A stretch of DNA of 64,000 bases. It comes from Crambe crambe. Lineage: Eukaryota > Porifera > Demospongiae > Poecilosclerida > Crambeidae. The stretch lies in NCBI GenBank assembly GCA_963924555.1, contig OZ004582.1:1054001-1118000 (forward strand), read 5' to 3'. Positions 10,006-51,859 of the stretch are shown here, one piece after another. The notes below the pieces were generated by a model. It was not told the DNA's origin. It worked only from the letters and a program-made list of their open reading frames with translations, and made no database searches. Position 1 is the first letter of the stretch. Every line of letters begins with the position of its first letter. Both the position numbers and the translations under genes were made by a program.

Positions 10006-10449
10006 CTACCTTTTAAGTAACTTGTTTGCAGCATCAATGTGCTTATCACCAAGCCAACAACCTTTTATAATTTGATTACGAAGCTTTGAACTCAGAAATC
10101 GGTTCTTATTGTGATCTGATGACTGTTTGCCAGAGGCAGATGGAGCTGAAGCTGATGGAGGCTTGTTGAAGGCAGAGGCAGAGACAGGGGTGCTAAAGGC
10201 TGACAGAGGCTTAGAGGGAGACCGAGGAATGATGGCAGAAGGAGGCTTTGTTGGAGAGGCTGAGAGAAGCTTGCCAAAAGTAGATTGAGGGATGCTGGCG
10301 CTGGTGAAAGTTGATGGGAGCTTGGTAGATGCAGAAAGAGGGATGCCAACAGAGGTTGACAGAGGCTTGCTGGAGGTGGATGTGGAAAGAATTGAAGGTT
10401 TGCTTTTGGAAGTTTTCTTTTTACGTACTGCAGTGAAAGTCACTGACAT
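10006..10449 (-). CDS. Ser/Pro-rich N-terminal exon of a Ulp1-PHD transposon gene
   Basis: An open 147-codon exon starting at an ATG. Residues 1-110 are a degenerate 10-12-residue repeat of the KPLSAS / KPPSAS kind; the end reads NRFLSSKLRNQIIKGCWLGD then KHIDAANKLLKR. That end motif is the conserved segment that precedes the C48 protease domain in the Ulp1-PHD family (compare 7985-8413). The last codons run into AAAAG|GTAGTT, a usable splice donor, so the annotated stop may lie in an intron. The low-complexity region is probably disordered. Assignment to the same gene as 7985-8413 is an inference from order, strand and family. Confidence 0.6.
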   Translation of the reverse strand: MSVTFTAVRKKKTSKSKPSILSTSTSSKPLSTSVGIPLSASTKLPSTFTSASIPQSTFGKLLSASPTKPPSAIIPRSPSKPLSAFSTPVSASAFNKPPSASAPSASGKQSSDHNKNRFLSSKLRNQIIKGCWLGDKHIDAANKLLKR

Positions 10450-10805
10450 CTTTTATGAAAATAATTAAAAAGAAATATACCTTTCTCTTTTACATAGTCG
10501 TAGAGTTCTTTACTTTTTGGATCAAGGACTGCTAAAGAAAAAAAATGGTTACTACAAATTATACTTGTTCATTAGTTATATTATATCTAAACCTGGTTTG
10601 ATTTCAGGTGAACTAGTGTTCATCTCATGGCTCCTTGAGTACATTATACATTTTGCCTGCATAATTATATATAGTGGTGACAAAAATAATTATGAAATGC
10701 ATACTGTATTATGGTACCTCTTCAATATCAACGTCAAAAATGTCCATGATGAAGAAAATAAAATAACTAAATGAAATAAAAGTAACTATTATAATAATAT
10801 TTTCA
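10450..10805. other. Spacer without recognisable gene
   Basis: A+T-rich; open frames here have no recognisable domain. Confidence 0.4.
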
Positions 10806-10811
10806 CACAGT

Positions 10812-11205
10812 ACCTGACGCAGAGTATGTACCACATTGCTAGCTTCTTTTGTTGGATGGGCTCTAGCAAAAGCAAATTTAGTGAAATAGTCAGAAATGGT
10901 TAATATATATTATCTGTTTCCAGATGCCGAAGGAGGAGAGATTGGTCCGATAAAATCAATTCCTAGATGACCAGGGTGACTTCACTGGAACTGGATGTAG
11001 CTTGGGCCTGATAGTGTCAATTTTCTTATTCATTCTCAAACATTTATCACAATGCTCAACCTATAATCACGAACTTGCTGGCTCATACCTTTCCAGTAGA
11101 ACCTTTCAGACACTCGATGCCATGTCTTTGTCATACCAAAATGTCCTGAAGTAGGATCTGAATGACAAGATTTAAGGATACGTCTCTGCTCCTGTGTGTC
11201 TGTTA
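10812..11205 (-). mobile_element. Ty3/Gypsy integrase fragment (fossil)
   Basis: Leftward: a zinc-binding H2C2 region with GHFGMTKTWHRVSERFYWKG, then the first integrase core block with HLGIDFIGPISPPSASGNR and LTISDYFTKFAFARA. These are Gypsy integrase signatures. No LTR, gag or reverse transcriptase adjoins it. It is a broken, truncated remnant. Confidence 0.75.
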
Positions 11206-43539: not shown

Positions 43540-43705
43540 CATGCTAGTATAGCCTGAAGGGCCCTGAAAATAGCCATGAACCTAACCTGAAGTTATTAAC
43601 CTAGCCTGAAGGGCCCCGAAAATAGCCATGAATCTAACCTGAGGTTATTAACCTAGCCTGAAGGGCCCTAAAAATAGCGATGATAGTGTTGCCCTAGAAC
43701 CCCTG
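43540..43705. repeat. AGCCTGAAGGGCCC array, left flank of the SET/recombinase element
   Basis: Three ~62-bp units of CCTGAAGGGCCC(T/C)GAAAATAGCCATGAA(C/T)CTAACCTGA. The modules AATAGCCATGA and CCTAACCT are shared with the arrays at 44418-44512 and 49280-49736. The MITE at 43731 separates it from 44418. Confidence 0.7.
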
Positions 43706-43730
43706 AGGCCCTATAAGTCCCTTTGGCATT

Positions 43731-44401
43731 TGTGACCGGTTCTGGGAAAACCCTCCGTCCGGTGCAAAAATCAATTATCAGATATGAGCACGTTTAGTTG
43801 GCAGTGCCAAAATTTGGCTAAAAAAATTTTTAAGCATAAATGACAACTATGATCCTTGAACAAAGCACAGATGAAGTTTGGAGCTCAGACTGCAAGTACA
43901 AAGGCTTCAAATGAAGCGCTAAAGTTAGCTAGTCAGCCATTGAAGCTTCGTGCACGGAGATTCTAGTCAGGCTGAAATTTATTGAACTTTAGGCAGGCTT
44001 TCCAGCTTATGCGCTGGGAAATATGAACTTACTAAGCTATCTGCGCTACCTTCGGTACCTTGCTTCTCTTCTCGGAGCTTCGGTTGGACCTTTCTCGAGC
44101 CAAAAGGCAAGAAACTAGCTTCTTACTAACTACAGTTCGAAACCCCACCCACCGTCAATTTACTAGTCCACGGGCATGTCCGGAAATAATGTTCACGTTG
44201 CTTAGTCAGCTTTTCTCGAAAAAACAATAACGCTAATGGACGCTACCTCGATCTTTCTAAGAGCTGTTCCTCAGGCGTCATAAAAGCTATAGCTTTGAAA
44301 TTCGCGCAATAAAGAGCCAAAGGGCCATAGATAATAAATTTTACCATAACAAAAAAATTTTAATTTTCACCGGATGGAGGGTTTTCCCAGAGCCGGTCAC
44401 A
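43731..44401 (+). repeat. 671-bp MITE, copy 1
   Basis: Terminal inverted repeats of about 33 bp starting TGTGACCGGTTCTGGGAAAA, flanked by TT on both sides. Nearly identical over its full length to copy 2 at 51095-51765, of exactly the same size. No coding capacity. Confidence 0.85.
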
Positions 44402-44417
44402 TTTACCAAGCATCTAG

Positions 44418-44512
44418 CCCACTATTAACCCCACCATTAGGAACCACCTAGCCTAACCTCATGGCTATCTTACCCCACCGTGTGAACCTAGCCTAACCTC
44501 ATGGGTATTTAC
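44418..44512 (+). repeat. Left inverted-repeat segment of the SET/recombinase element
   Basis: ACCCCACCATTAGGAACC, CTAGCCTAACCTCATGGCTA, TCTTACCCCACCGTGTG, CTAGCCTAACCTCATGG. In inverted orientation the same modules, in the same order, occupy 49620-49736 on the far side of the two genes. Confidence 0.75.
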
Positions 44513-44935
44513 CTTAAGGCAAGGCAGGTTCTTCATATCCCTCATAGCCATATACACTGGAGCCAACCTGGAAGACATTAGGACAGCCCCCCCAGTCTGT
44601 CACTTACTCCCCTTAAGGCAAGGCAGGTTCTTCATATCCCTCATAGCCATATACACTGGAGCCAACCTGGAAGACATTTGGACAGCCCCCCAGTCTGTCA
44701 CTTACTCCCCTTAAGGCACGGCAGGTTCTTCATTCCCTCATAGCCAACCTGGAAGACATTTGGACAGCCCTCCAGTCCGTCACTTACTCCCCTTAAGGCA
44801 AGGCAGGTTCTTCATATCCCTCATAGGTATATACGATTGAGCCAACCTGGAAGACATTTTGAGAGCCCCCCAGTCTGCATCAAGATACCCTTTAAGCTAG
44901 GCAAGAACTTTGAACCATCATGGGACACCAACGAG
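44513..44935. repeat. ~125-bp tandem repeat, four units
   Basis: Units begin CTTAAGGCAAGGCAGGTTCT and contain CATATCCCTCATAGCCATAT, CCAACCTGGAAGACATT and GGACAGCCCCCCAGTCTGTC. Diverged relatives (CCTCGTAGCCATAGAGGACA, CCAACCTGGAAAACAATTGG) lie at 49075-49260 on the other side of the gene pair. Confidence 0.85.
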
Positions 44936-45087
44936 TCGCCCATTACGTACTTGACATCCTCATAGCCATATATTGTCATAAAGATATTCTATATATAGCC
45001 CACATCAGCTATCCATAAGGTGTACTGTTACATACATGTAATTGGGTAAAACACAAATACATATTACATACACAAACACACATCACA

Positions 45088-45625
45088 TCAAGATTTCAGC
45101 CAATCTGAAGAATTGACCACATCCCTCCTCTCTCCGTAATCGAACAACAATTCCTCCCCTACAGAAATGTCTCTGGAGGAAAACAGGCAGAGGTAAGGCG
45201 TCCCCTTAATCTCCACGACTTTTGATACAGCATTGTACTCAATTGAACTGTGGTTTACTAGACGTCCCAGTCGACCACTCTCCCTCGTTGCATCCACACT
45301 GTAAGAACGATCATACAGAGTCACTATCGGTCTATCTGCTGTAATACCCCACATACCATAATTTCTTAGACTTGTGGGCAAAGTAGTACATATAGCTTCC
45401 TATGCTGCTATCCTTGATGTATTCTTTCTCCCTCTTCCTCGCTTCTGATTCTGCAATCCTCTCTCCCGCATATTCACATAGAAAGTCACCAGCAGAAAAC
45501 GGTCTAGCAGCAATGACACCCCTTCCTTTGCCTTCAACCTCCACCTGTATCAAGCCATCCTCCAATCCTCCCGAGATTTTTCTCTCCAACTCTTTGTCAA
45601 CAGCAATACAAAATAATGAAGCCAT
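45088..45625 (-). CDS. SET-domain protein, KMT5A-like lysine methyltransferase
   Basis: Two exons, 45625-45357 and 45298-45088, around a 58-bp intron (donor ATG|GTATGT, acceptor TTACAG|TG), give 159 codons ending DWLKS-stop. They read GKGRGVIAARPFSAGDF, CEYAGERI, EKEYIKDSSIGSYMYYF, then across the splice VDATRESGRLGRLVNHS (cofactor-binding NHS), YLCLFSSRDISVGEELLFDYG (catalytic Y/F region). This matches KMT5A/PR-Set7 block for block (its DATRETNRLGRLINHS, ELLYDYG), which monomethylates H4K20. The true N terminus is unclear: the exon may start earlier by splicing to the finger exons upstream. No disruption in the SET domain. Confidence 0.85.
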
Positions 45626-45695
45626 CTCGAAATGAAATACGATTCATACCTCGAGGAGAGAATTGCAAAGTCTTCTACTACATCTGGCAGGGAAA

Positions 45696-46204
45696 TCATA
45701 CAACTGTACAAGTACCATTACGGTAATAATAAATTTCTACTAGAAAACTTGAGGACAACGCTGCTGGCTGCATGTAGTCTTCCACCTTGACTGGAAGCCT
45801 GGAAAGCAAGGTCCTCTCCTTTTCCAACAGGTCATCCTCCTCCATGTCCAATAACAAACGCCGCCATCCAGCGCCTATCAAGCGATGAGATGTTGTTAGG
45901 TGGTCAGCCAGCCTGGAGTATTTCCTTGATCCGCAGTGTAGAAAAGGGCAAGGATAGCTGTTCCTGTTGGGCTTTGTGTGACCACTGGCTCCCTCTACTC
46001 CTAATCTCTCTGCATATAATACAGGCATAAAGCATAGCAGACACCGAATGCACTCACTTGGTCAGGTGTCTTCTCTTTCGCTTCCTTCATGTAAGGCTCT
46101 CTTTCTTCCTTGGTTGCCAACTTGTGTGCCTTGGCCAGGTGGTCTGTCAGCTTGCAGTAGTAAGTCTTGACACAGATTGGGCACTGTACACGTGGTGACG
46201 TCAA
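45696..46204 (-). CDS. Two C2H2-finger exons, probable 5' part of the SET gene
   Basis: Exon 1 (to 46058) encodes VQCPICVKTYYCKLTDHL, AKAHKLATKEEREPYM, then a donor CAA|GTGAGT; after a 50-bp intron (46057-46008) exon 2 reads RLGVEGASGHTKPN, YPCPFLHCGSRKYSRLADHL, TTSHRLIGAGWRRLL and an acidic helix. Both fingers have the shape C-x2/4-C...L(T/A)DHL-x3-H. No ATG opens the first exon in frame; upstream it runs into a (GGGCTA)n stretch read as Leu-Ala. Same strand and only 70 bp from the SET exons, so finger and SET exons probably form one transcript, with a splice that can join exon 2 to ELERKISGG in the SET exon. Confidence 0.6.
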
Positions 46205-46535
46205 CTCGTAGTAATTGCCTAGGGCTAGGGCTAGGGCTAGGAGCCCTCATGGCTGTAACTATAAATAGTAACCTCGTGCGCCCTCAAGGCCAGGCTAGCT
46301 ACGTAGGTGACCTCTTCAGCCGCGCATGCGCTCGCTGCGTGGTGATCTAAACCTCGCAGTAATTGAACAGTAATTGAACAGGCGCCCTCGTGGCTATAAC
46401 TATAAATAGAAAACCTATAAATAGTAACATCGTGGCCCTCAAGGCCAGGCAAGTAGGTGACCTCGTGTGCCGCGCGCCCTCGTGGCTAGAGCTGATACAG
46501 TCGACCTTGTGGCAGATATCGTCAAATCACGGAAG
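46205..46535. promoter_or_regulatory. Shared bidirectional promoter region of the SET and recombinase genes
   Basis: About 330 bp between the divergent 5' ends. Contains a (GGGCTA)4 run near 46219-46240, CpG-rich CGCGCATGCGCTCGCTGCG, and an imperfect duplication of CCCTCGTGGCTATAACTATA followed by AATAG (about 46240-46270 inverted, and 46383-46420), plus a second pair of CCTCAAGGCCAGGC blocks. TATAAATAG could serve as TATA box in either direction. Inferred from layout, no direct evidence of activity. Confidence 0.45.
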
Positions 46536-47263
46536 ATGCAGTCCATCAAAGTCTACGTCGACGGCCGTCCAGTAACACTGGATATCCATGACGGCGATGA
46601 ATTATCGTCAATCGCATGCAAGCTGGAGGGGAAAGGCTATGGCATCAGCGCTGCCTTCCCAAAGGTCAGCGCTGACGGGAAGAAGCTGTCATTTGAAGAC
46701 CTCTTCCAGAAAGTCGACCTGAGCAGAACCTACAAGTTCGGTAAGTAATGCGTACTCTGTCTTTACACTTTGAATTTAGATCTTATTCTATTCTAGTCAC
46801 CGAGTCAGCAACATCCTTTGACCAGACCCTCGACCCCAACGCTGCAGGCTCTGCAGCCTCTGCCAGCCAACTACACCAGCCTCATCTCAAACTTTACTGG
46901 CCTCCGAACTTGCCTCAGCCCCGAAACCCAACAGTCCACCGGTCACCTCTAAACAAGACAACACCAGACACAAAAAGGGTAAGAGTATATTGTACAGGGT
47001 AGGCTCAATGATCTAGCTGCTCATGTCATATGTAGAGAGGTACTATCTGTGTCAAGTTCCGGGATGCAGCGCAAAGATCAAGCGGCCCTGGAATCACAAA
47101 TCTATATCGAGCTGACCAAGACAGCCAGTCTGGTGCAAGAACAGAAACCAGCAGCCCAACTTGATCCCACAGCCGACAACCCCAAAGACATCCAGCCCAT
47201 CAAAGTGGGAGGCAGAGGTTTGGTAGCACCAAATGATACTCCCATCTTGGTAGAGTTTAAGAA

Positions 47264-47291
47264 GTAAGTAATTGAACTCGGTCATCTCTAG
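47264..47291 (+). other. Candidate 28-bp intron in the recombinase gene
   Basis: GTAAGTAATT...CATCTCTAG between EFK(K) and FLGSLAGGQKKP; removing it restores the frame. It would be unusually short even for this compact genome, so an indel is the alternative explanation. Confidence 0.4.
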
Positions 47292-48291
47292 ATTCCTTGG
47301 CTCTCTTGCTGGCGGCCAGAAGAAGCCCAACCAGCAAAAGGAGATGGCCGTTGACTTGGAAGTTCCTCCACTTCTCCTCACCAGAATCCATCGATGTAAC
47401 TGATGTCACCAAGATGAAATGCATCAAGGCCTACGTGGAGGAGCTACAAAAGAGGAGGATAGGGCCCAGTGGAATCACCAACAAGTTGAACGGTAAGACA
47501 ACAATGCTATGTCACAAACTATGTTAGTGATACTTATTTCCTCATACAGGATGCCAACCAAAGAAGATGAATCTCTGGCCTCTAAGGCCCGAGTAAAAAC
47601 AAATTCATTGAAGAAGGGCCTGGCAAGCTATTATCTGCCAAAAATGTTCCTGCAGTCTGACGAGACTTTCGAAGAGATACTGAAGATTGCCCACAGGGAC
47701 CCAAAGGACATTGTTGTTCACTTGCAGATTCCTCATGTGCTACCTCGTGTACACCAATTTTCAACGCCAAGGAGCAGTGGCAAACATGACCGCTGGGGAG
47801 GTACTCTCCGCAGACAAGTGTAACAATTACAGAATCGTGATGGTTTGGGACCACAAAACGGTCTCCACACAAGGATTGCCGTCCATATACGAGTCTACCA
47901 ATTGCTCTTGAAGTATGGAGTCTATAATAGCCATACGCATGAGAGTATACCAGCTATTGTTCAGGTACATGGAACCCAAGACAGGGGCAGATCTCGTGTT
48001 CACCACAGAGGGCGGGGAAAAAGTAACACACGTGGCCATAGAGCTCGAAAAGCTCGGTGAGCGCTTTGGAAAACGCAAGCAAATTGCCACCTCAGTTGGA
48101 CAAACTGGAACAGATGCCGACGTAAGGGCAATCGGCAAGTTACCTTCCACACTCCTCAACAAAAAAGTAACACGGAGGAGAGGTATAACAAATATTTTTT
48201 TATTAATCACACAGATACATCCAGTTGAATCAGACGGCCTGCGCAACTGACAGTCCCAGTCCCTCAGGAACCAGCGAGGACCAGGGAAGGT

Positions 48292-48625
48292 ATACAATCC
48301 CTCTGTCAATATAATTACTTAGGTAAGAACTTACCATGTATTTGACAGGACTGATGAAAGCGACAAGGATTTCGATCCTCCCCCTCCCACCCGAGTCCAG
48401 AAAAGGGCTAGGGCTACGGCTAGGGCTAGGTATGCAACCTCTCTGTCGATAAGAACTTACTACGCATTACCATGTATTTGACAGGATCGAGGAAAGCGAC
48501 GAGGAATTTGATTCCTCCACCTACTCGAGCAGTGCAGAAGAGGGCTAGAAGGTATGCAACCTCTCTGTCAATATATTTATTTAGTTAAGAACTTACTACA
48601 CATTTCACAGCATCAGCAGAGACGA
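48292..48625 (+). repeat. Tandem duplication of an exon-intron unit
   Basis: Three exons of the form (R)-(T/I)-x-E-S-D followed by a PPPP/TR and basic KRARR part are each followed or preceded by the same intron (GTATGCAACCTCTCTGTC ... CATGTATTTGACAG). Unit about 125-140 bp. Copy 2 is shifted in frame in its second half. Confidence 0.75.
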
Positions 48626-48930
48626 CGAGGACATCAATCCTCCCCCTAAACCCTCTAAAAGGAGGAGAGATTTATCGAATCCCACTTCGAAACGGAAACA
48701 AGAGCTAAAGTCCCGAGCAGCACGGAGTGTGCTGCTTTCCTGAAGGAATACAAAGACTCTAATCATTTTGGTGGGAGAACCCCCCAGAATATCCAGGACA
48801 AAGTAAAGACTTATATTAGGGAAAAAAAAATCACCGAAATAAAAAGATTGATTTCAAAAGCCAGTTAAAACATCGCGAATAACCTCTCATAGAATTCAGC
48901 AATGAAATAAACATAAACTTTTATCTGCTT

Positions 48931-49270
48931 CAGGTCCGTTGCGTGCATATTCACGCCTACCGAGAACTGGTATAGATCGTTAATACGTTCGGTAAAGTGT
49001 GTCCACAACACCTGAAAGCATCCCTCCAAACCATCCAGGCAGCTTGGCTAGGTTAGGCAATATGACCCAAAACATCCATGAGCCCTGCAAGAACTGCGAA
49101 CTACCCTAGAGGACAATTGGACAGCCCGCGAGTCCCTCAGTGCCATCCCCCAGAGCTAGTTCCCTGTTATACATATCCCTCGTAGCCATAGAGGACATGC
49201 ATAAATGTCCAACCTGGAAAACAATTGGTCAGCCCTCAGGGCTGTCTCTAGCACTTTTGACCATCCTCCA
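48931..49270. repeat. Diverged copies of the left ~125-bp tandem unit
   Basis: CATGAGCCCTGCAAGAACTG, GGACAATTGGACAGCCCGCG and CCTCGTAGCCATAGAGGACA correspond to the units of 44513-44935. They lie between the recombinase gene and the right array. Confidence 0.55.
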
Positions 49271-49279
49271 CATCTTTCT

Positions 49280-49736
49280 GTGCATAGGTTAGGTTTACAA
49301 CGTGGGCTAAAATAGGCTAGGTTAAGTTTATAACGGGAGCCACGAGGTTAGGCTAGGTTCACACAGTGGGCTAAATGAGGTTTACAATGGTGGGCTAAAA
49401 TAGCCGTGAGGTTAGGTTTACGACGGTGGGGTAAAATAGCCATGAGGCGGGATGAAACAAACATGAGGTTTATAACGGTGTAGCCATGAGTTTAGGGCCA
49501 GGTTTACACGGTGGGGTAAGATAGCCATGAGGTTAAGGCTAGGTATATAACGGTGGGGTGAAATAGCCATGAGGATAGGATAGGTTAGGTTTGTAGTGGT
49601 GGGGTAAAATAGCCATGAGGTTAGGTTAGGTTCCTAATGGTGGGGTTAAATAGCCATGAGGGTAGGCTAGGTTTACACGGTGAGGAAAGATAGCCATGAG
49701 GTTAGGTTAGGTTCCTAATGGTGGGGTAAGGTTAAG
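49280..49736 (-). repeat. Right array of ~48-bp AGGTTAGGCTAGGTT units
   Basis: About nine units of ATAGCCATGAGGTTAGG(C/T)TAGG followed by TTTACA(C/A)GGTGGGGTAAA. It is the inverted counterpart of 44418-44512; the outermost ~115 bp match best. Ends just before an AAGTAGGGATGGCCTAAAAT element edge. Confidence 0.8.
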
Positions 49737-51094: not shown

Positions 51095-51765
51095 TGTGAC
51101 CCGCTCTGGGAAAACCCTCCGTCCGGTGCAAAAATCAATTATCAGATATGAGCACGTTTAGTTGGCAGTGCCAAAATTTGGCTAAAAAATTTTTTAAGCA
51201 TAAATGACAACTATGATCCTTGAACAAAACACAGATGAAGTTTGGAGCTCAGACTACAAGTACAAAGGCTTCAAATGAAGCGCTAAAGTTAGCTAGTCAG
51301 CCATTGAAGCTTCGTGCACGGAGATTCTAGTCAGGCTGAAATTCATTGAACTTTAGGCAGGCTTTCCAGCTTATGCGCTGGGAAATATGAACTTACTAAG
51401 CTATCTGCGCTACCTTCGGTACCTTGCTTCTCTTCTCGGAGCTTCGGTTGGACCTTTCTCGAGCCAAAAGGCAAGAAACTAGCTTCTTACTAACTACAGT
51501 TCGAAACCCCACCCACCGTCAATTTAATAGTCCACGGGCATGTCCGGAAATAATGTTCACGTTGCTTAGTCAGCTTTTCTCGAAAAAACAATAACGCTAA
51601 TGGACGCTACCTCGATCTTTCTAAGAGCTGTTCCTCAGGCGTCATAAAAGCTATAGCTTTGAAATTTGCACAATAAAGAGCCAAAGGGCCATAGATAATA
51701 AATCTTACCATAACAAAATTTTTTTAATTTTCACCGGATGGAGGGTTTTCCCAGAGCCAGTCACA
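51095..51765 (+). repeat. 671-bp MITE, copy 2
   Basis: Same orientation and length as copy 1 at 43731-44401, differing at only a small number of bases across the parts compared by eye. Flanked by TA on both sides. Confidence 0.85.
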
Positions 51766-51859
51766 TATCACCAGCATCGGTGGAAGGTTCTGCATCAGTG
51801 TCCCCAGCATCACTGTAGATGCTATTGCGCTGATACACACCCTACTTTGTCTGCACTGA

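Follow-up and report, generated by a model that had tools for sequence, protein, structure and literature searches.

Units of a DNA element family whose centromere-facing end meets telomere repeats, and which lie in a single polarity, were found at 19 chromosome ends of the sponge Crambe crambe. The window analysed here, the whole 64,000-nucleotide stretch C3:1054001–1118000, holds a broken, rearranged relic of one such unit at ~1.1 Mb on its chromosome, in which a SET-domain gene and a tyrosine recombinase gene are transcribed away from each other. We judge it somewhat probable (roughly 0.55) that this copy is a decayed interstitial relic of a telomere-resident family whose recombinase joins copies to (CCCTAG)n; on our reading, the family consists of telomere-resident tyrosine-recombinase elements with a swappable chromatin-effector gene. 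A first-pass annotation of the window had proposed a mobile element carrying this gene pair, and the telomere-repeat boundaries and single polarity at 19 ends, our main point, go beyond that view. A compact two-gene recombinase unit, together with sister types and deletion derivatives, is spread over 19 ends of an animal-type genome, and its second gene encodes a host-like domain, either SET, for chromatin, or the INCENP box, for mitosis. If insertion is the true cause, the family would offer a natural telomere-directed recombinase, an animal counterpart of the Y′ elements of yeast and, in a form open to test, a selfish element with the possible ability to alter chromatin at telomeres.

To find further copies, the genome (143 Mb, 119 contigs) was searched with the intergenic region, the recombinase and the SET protein of the pair, giving 10, 31 and 36 matches, respectively, many of the last being other SET genes. 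SET and recombinase parts are divergent neighbours at three places: the window, C8:18.8–24 kb near a chromosome end, and C3:2.026–2.030 Mb. The pair recurs at unrelated loci, as the first-pass annotation had asked for in support of its view, and a mobile or mobile-derived nature is well supported. No element with a SET and recombinase gene pair was found among the listed matches of the open-access literature searches, and the combination of KMT5A, transposable element, zinc finger and recombinase gave no match among open-access papers.

Telomere-repeat junctions and polarity

The telomere repeat in this genome is CTAGGG/CCCTAG, not TTAGGG. C8 and C16 start with (CCCTAG)n, in a tract of 6816 bp on C16, and a 30-mer of five CTAGGG units occurs 40,583 times genome-wide when counted in overlapping register (control, 0). 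Among the 20 papers listed of 3,296 matches in a search of open-access literature, none described a sponge with CTAGGG telomeres. At the left end of C1, CTAGGG lies on the plus strand (1247–1306 and 10215–10852), opposite to C8 and C16; this tip is perhaps inverted or misjoined.

The most complete copy found occupies C8:14772–25836 (11,065 bp, 14.8–25.8 kb from the end), where both genes are open, and sits between (CCCTAG)15 and (CCCTAG)9.8. From the telomere inward its order is telomere tract, E, A and B arrays, a 17-bp array, module C′, recombinase gene, SET gene, modules C and D, and telomere tract, with the recombinase transcribed toward the telomere and SET toward the centromere. The C8 and C16 copies are 99.9% identical over 3637 bp and diverge within the tract into different satellites. 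At the centromere-facing end, the D end, CTCCATGC is followed without a gap by CCCTAGCCCTAG; the 20-mer of this junction occurs 32 times genome-wide and its reversed control 0 times. At 31 of the 32 junctions the D end faces the centromere and the chromosome end lies no more than 130 kb away. Together they mark 8 left and 11 right chromosome ends (C6 and C10 were placed without their lengths), and because units that share an end are in part duplicates, 19 is a fairer count than 32.

Seven D-end junctions were read individually (C8:25836, C16:10421, C8:14681, C13 ~33165, C13:26065, C3:2.28 Mb and C3:2.03 Mb), and all seven have CTCCA[T/A]G[C/G] followed by CCCTAG-type repeats, imperfect at C3:2.03 Mb. 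For D ends of types 2 and 3, 29 of 36 have at least two repeats next. The C3:2.28-Mb copy runs into six CCCTAG repeats and then a satellite starting like the one beside the C13 subtelomeric copy, and therefore looks like a former subtelomere. Several units per chromosome end are found on C3, C6, C10, C13, C14 and C15, and C8:14682–14771 is a telomere tract between two units. The last catalytic recombinase exon was matched alone 33 times, so that most end units are deletion derivatives; 32 of these matches read toward the nearer end, the other being mid-chromosome on C5.

Recombinase and effector genes

In predicted gene models, the C8 recombinase has 865 amino acids in ten exons, and the C8 SET protein 321 amino acids in five exons, with two C2H2 fingers and a KMT5A-like SET domain. 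The recombinase has the fold of the tyrosine recombinase superfamily, and in the homologue alignment the catalytic R, K, R, H and Tyr are kept in 29 of 30, 27 of 28, 22 of 24, 21 of 23 and 24 of 25 non-gap rows, respectively, in agreement with the tyrosine-recombinase part of the earlier naming of this protein. For its Crypton part, Pfam scans of the C8 and C13 recombinases and of 31 homologues returned no line for the Crypton-type recombinase domain DUF3504, the presence of a model under that name being unchecked, and an NCBIfam scan gave no useful match. None of the 50 rows of VIA-align 2 was a eukaryotic transposon recombinase, which is no evidence either way. Searches for relatives yielded 13 pattern matches in viral_contigs and 41 in genome_contigs, none of which was confirmed. 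A divergent recombinase (28% identical), in a single 458-amino-acid open frame, lies at C3:117547–118245 (+) and C13:7564752–7565450 (−), both subtelomeric; unlike the main family, it reads away from the telomere.

For the recombinase, the ratio of nonsynonymous to synonymous substitution rates (dN/dS) between C8 and the copies at C3:502 kb, C16:4.57 Mb and the window was 0.18, 0.15 and 0.16, over 496, 441 and 604 codons with 3, 1 and 1 stop codons set aside. The comparison with C3:2.03 Mb (dN/dS 0.60, 17 stops) is misaligned past C3:2030448 and was not relied on. For SET, C8 gave 0.19 against the window, 0.25 against C3:2.03 Mb and 0.20 against C3:2.28 Mb. These ratios indicate purifying selection on both genes of type 1, the SET type. 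Synonymous divergence (dS) between the window and C8 is 0.076 in SET and 0.311 in the recombinase, so the copies look mosaic. Among 23 stop-to-stop frames of at least 90 amino acids in the C8 element, judged by eye with no family scan, there was no third gene; they have the look of exons of either gene, of sequence antisense to these or of read-through from the arrays, and neither a helicase nor a reverse transcriptase was seen in them.

The C8 SET protein matches PF00856 at E 1.6e-19. Its top 14 PDB sequence matches are all KMT5A/SETD8 (E 1e-40 to 2e-36), with the next family at 2e-19, which upholds the KMT5A-like identity proposed at first. KMT5A is the monomethylase of histone H4 lysine 20 (H4K20). 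The nearest SET gene outside the elements, on C19, is 59–62% identical and shares with the element gene the position of a phase-2 intron, at one Cys codon; this common intron suggests that the element SET is a captured host KMT5A gene, introns included.

Sister-type loci were found at C13:28–33 kb, C3:103–107 kb and C21:5.648–5.653 Mb. Here a recombinase 52% identical to that of the window over the matched part diverges from a gene for a 271-amino-acid protein, whose first ~140 residues correspond by alignment to the two-finger portion of the SET protein and whose C-terminal part has an INCENP Aurora-binding box and an R/E-rich tail, with no SET domain. The box (PF03941) scored 39.6 bits against a cut-off of 22 in residues 159–211 of the C13 protein (E 5e-10), which had no PDB sequence match at E 0.05. 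The C13 recombinase was taken from open frames, the automatic model being faulty in its later exons. As the three sister copies are 97.7–99.6% identical in their main aligned blocks, they are not independent. Judged by alignment, the finger module is constant between the SET and INCENP types and the effector differs.

Other KMT5A-like SET genes lie beside other frames: a weak KDZ-transposase match (E 0.0067, below the cut-off) at C3:3.228 Mb, a similar-looking frame without a Pfam match at C1:4.986 Mb, and a weak OTU match at C3:3.21 Mb. Another transposon group, too, may have acquired a KMT5A-like SET.

Mechanism, rival explanations and known systems

In the reading that we prefer, the recombinase would act by site-specific recombination on (CCCTAG)n, joining to it a copy that is extrachromosomal and probably circular; the copies would come to be stacked in tandem, with one polarity and with direct telomere repeats on either side. 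The chromosome end would erode afterwards and be healed by telomerase, as on C16, where the copy is truncated and the telomere repeats, which extend to 6816, abut the intergenic region and SET; further copies and units with internal deletions would later be added farther out. The finger protein is predicted to bind element or telomere DNA, probably bringing chromatin or mitotic activity there. A bolder version, which we consider rather unlikely, is a telomere-colonising animal DNA transposon that would combine a telomere-repeat-specific recombinase with a two-finger module bearing interchangeable host-captured effectors, and would shape telomere chromatin or chromosome behaviour to its own advantage, the KMT5A SET writing histone marks and the INCENP box recruiting a mitotic kinase at chromosome ends.

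Several observations weigh against telomere joining by the recombinase. The box-II His is replaced in the homologues (T in 18, S in 5, A in 1 and N in 1 of 25 rows), and the recombinase profile finds solved recombinases as weak sequence matches (E 0.42–0.64). One junction, C3:331818, has the opposite polarity; 7 of the 36 type-2/3 D ends are not followed by two repeats; interstitial copies exist on C3, C5, C9 and C16; and no empty site was seen. Only C8 and C16 were found to have the SET type at a chromosome end; the majority of the 19 ends bear type 2 or 3. The three telomere-facing ends seen differ, being an array start on C8, a cut inside the element on C16 and, at C13:26079, what had been taken as a candidate for a conserved telomere-facing junction and proved to be a rearranged recombinase fragment. 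Two precise ends are therefore not established, and the constant end is the centromere-facing one only; a constant inner end with varying outer ends would also fit spread in the manner of yeast Y′ elements.

Such spread is the strongest rival. The units would be subtelomeric segments multiplied by homologous recombination, break-induced replication and telomere healing at CCCTAG tracts, with the recombinase and SET genes as passengers or leftovers of a once-mobile element that do not drive the process, an account to which we give appreciable weight at less than even odds. This account would predict variable outer ends and tandem units that share one polarity, many of them with telomere tracts in between, as well as the C16 telomere sitting directly on a cut element, the 33 last-exon-only matches, the predominance of units without a full recombinase gene, and the mosaic copies. 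Yeast Y′ elements are described with the same layout, of subtelomeric tandem units with tandem repeats, a conserved protein gene and a telomeric tract in 145 of 234 tandem junctions (PMC13177704). The Y′ gene described there encodes a helicase (PMC13177704), whereas tyrosine recombinase and chromatin-effector genes and one constant junction register are found here. Left unexplained by this account are the purifying selection on both genes, the retention of the recombinase and finger-protein pair in two unit types, and the single exact junction register.

That register, together with the single polarity in 31 of 32 junctions, has already weakened the proposal of a Crypton-like element without telomere preference, whose copies survive mainly in subtelomeres because insertions elsewhere are lost. 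The tyrosine recombinase and the interstitial copies would agree with this proposal, and yet the interstitial C3:2.28-Mb copy likewise ends in six CCCTAG repeats and then C13-type satellite; we regard it as improbable. Cryptons are also tyrosine-recombinase DNA elements without terminal inverted repeats (PMC3212892). They differ from the elements found here in what was seen of the latter: no DUF3504 match, telomere-repeat boundaries, and a second gene with fingers and a SET domain or INCENP box. With regard to Crypton end repeats, C8 has direct CCCTAG tracts on both sides, and no outer end was found twice.

The closest precedents are yeast Y′ elements and telomere-inserting endogenous nimaviruses; the telomere-inserting recombinases that we found described are those of giant crustacean viruses. 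Endogenous nimaviruses are described as inserting into telomere repeats by means of a tyrosine recombinase that has C2H2 and SAM-like parts (PMC10871703, PMC7016691). The resemblance lies in a tyrosine recombinase with a C2H2-like stretch and a SAM-like N-terminal domain and in flanking host telomere repeats, possible concatemers or circles being described on the viral side (PMC10871703, PMC7016691). The units described here are likewise seated in host telomere repeats (32 junctions; 29 of 36 D ends), where we infer insertion. The insertion niche and recombinase architecture (PMC10871703) would suit remnants of a large endogenous DNA virus of this sort, an explanation that we hold to be very improbable, given that the 11,065-bp C8 element has no third gene among the frames inspected and that no recombinase relative was confirmed in viral_contigs. 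Nimaviral genomes measure ~280–400 kb, as opposed to ~11 kb and two genes here, and their telomere repeat is TAACC rather than CCCTAG; a further difference is the SET or INCENP-box protein carried by the units found here. The likeness is one of described architecture and niche.

Most known telomere-dwelling elements use a reverse transcriptase. The retrotransposons that target telomeres, among them SART/TRAS, HeT-A arrays and rotifer Terminons, lie within or beside telomere repeats in a fixed polarity, form tandem arrays and have eroded outer ends; the units found here share these three properties but carry a recombinase, and by eye no reverse transcriptase was seen in the C8 unit. SETMAR is a SET methyltransferase tied to a mobile element; here, unlike SETMAR, the SET domain is of KMT5A type and lies in a separate divergent gene with no fusion, and no mariner transposase was seen. 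A non-viral tyrosine-recombinase element described as telomere-specific was not found among the listed matches of the open-access literature searches.

The relic in the window and other interstitial copies

The features of the window copy, in window positions, are as follows.

43550–43689, plus strand: A array, 52-bp unit × 2.6, oriented like the A array that C8 has at its telomere-facing end
43723–44409, no strand: insert resembling a miniature inverted-repeat transposable element (MITE), with 46-nt inverted ends (87%); foreign to the element, splitting the left arrays
44425–44511, plus strand: part of a B array, in inverted orientation to the B array on the right
44512–44877, plus strand: C array, 83–99-bp units, adjoining the SET gene 3′ end as in C8 and C16
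45088–46185, minus strand: broken gene for a two-C2H2-finger, KMT5A-like SET protein (PF00856; fingers judged by eye)
46186–46535, no strand: divergent intergenic region, containing a telomere-type (CTAGGG)3.8 tract at 46219–46241
46536–48868, plus strand: broken homologue of the ten-exon tyrosine-recombinase gene of C8
49088–49271, plus strand: C′ module, 3′ of the recombinase gene, 94% identical to C8:18448–18257
49284–49731, plus strand: B′ array, 41-bp unit, with no A or E array or telomere tract beyond it, unlike C8

The divergence of the minus-strand SET gene and the plus-strand recombinase gene is real, as first annotated, with ~350 bp between them (46186–46535) and PF00856 in two exon frames of the SET gene (E 9e-11 and 1.7e-6). 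Both genes are damaged. The SET gene is without the stretch carrying the C8 start codon, 68 exon bases being missing. When aligned with four other copies, the recombinase gene shows 20 gaps of 1–124 bp at places where two or more of those copies have sequence; the length is 9–57 bp in 15 of the gaps, and some gaps fall in introns or in a variable 51-bp repeat. An (AGGGCT)4.5 tract lies within the span of this gene (48404–48430). Seven frames of window DNA neighbouring the element gave no Pfam family at E 0.01.

The first-pass annotation had also seen the same modules inverted on both outer sides. This is so for module B, in which 44446–44511 and 49647–49712 are 91% complementary over 66 nt and five more pairs were found, and not for module A, which is present on the left only and parted from B by the MITE-like insert; the ends of that insert form the seventh inverted pair. 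The array modules recur at other genome loci, i.e. above chance. In the window, the inverted A–B piece occupies the position expected for the D end. In C8, C3:2.28 Mb and C3:3.82 Mb (the last judged from coordinates), the two flanks are unlike each other, with E–A–B or B on one side and C and D on the other, and so are not inverted repeats of one another. Because the flanks of other copies differ and are non-inverted, we rejected the interpretation of the arrays as terminal inverted repeats; the inverted arrays are a peculiarity of the window relic, not element termini.

Among the other interstitial copies, C3:2.28 Mb keeps the SET part and both flanks with the recombinase gene deleted, and from its coordinates C3:3.82 Mb has probably lost the recombinase likewise. 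Recombinase copies without an adjoining SET gene of this kind lie at C3:502 kb, at C16:4.57 and 4.59 Mb, and on C5 and C9. Downstream of the C3:502-kb recombinase, on the same strand, is a SET domain of another kind (C3:504719–505126; 29% identical, two internal stops). Interstitial relics are clustered at C3:0.1–3.8 Mb, C16:4.27–4.59 Mb and C5:4.9–5.5 Mb, regions that may once have been chromosome ends or may be points of fusion. The D end of the C3:2.28-Mb copy is broken by an insert with palindromic ends, TGTGACAGTACTTG...CAAGTACTGTCACA (C3:2282280–2282480, first ~107 bases). The MITE-like insert of the window is 98.5% identical over 654 bp to C3:235118–235771, and besides this copy at C3:235118 the ~0.69-kb repeat has a second copy in the window, at ~51098–51768; its ends match GTGACCGG...CCGGTCAC.

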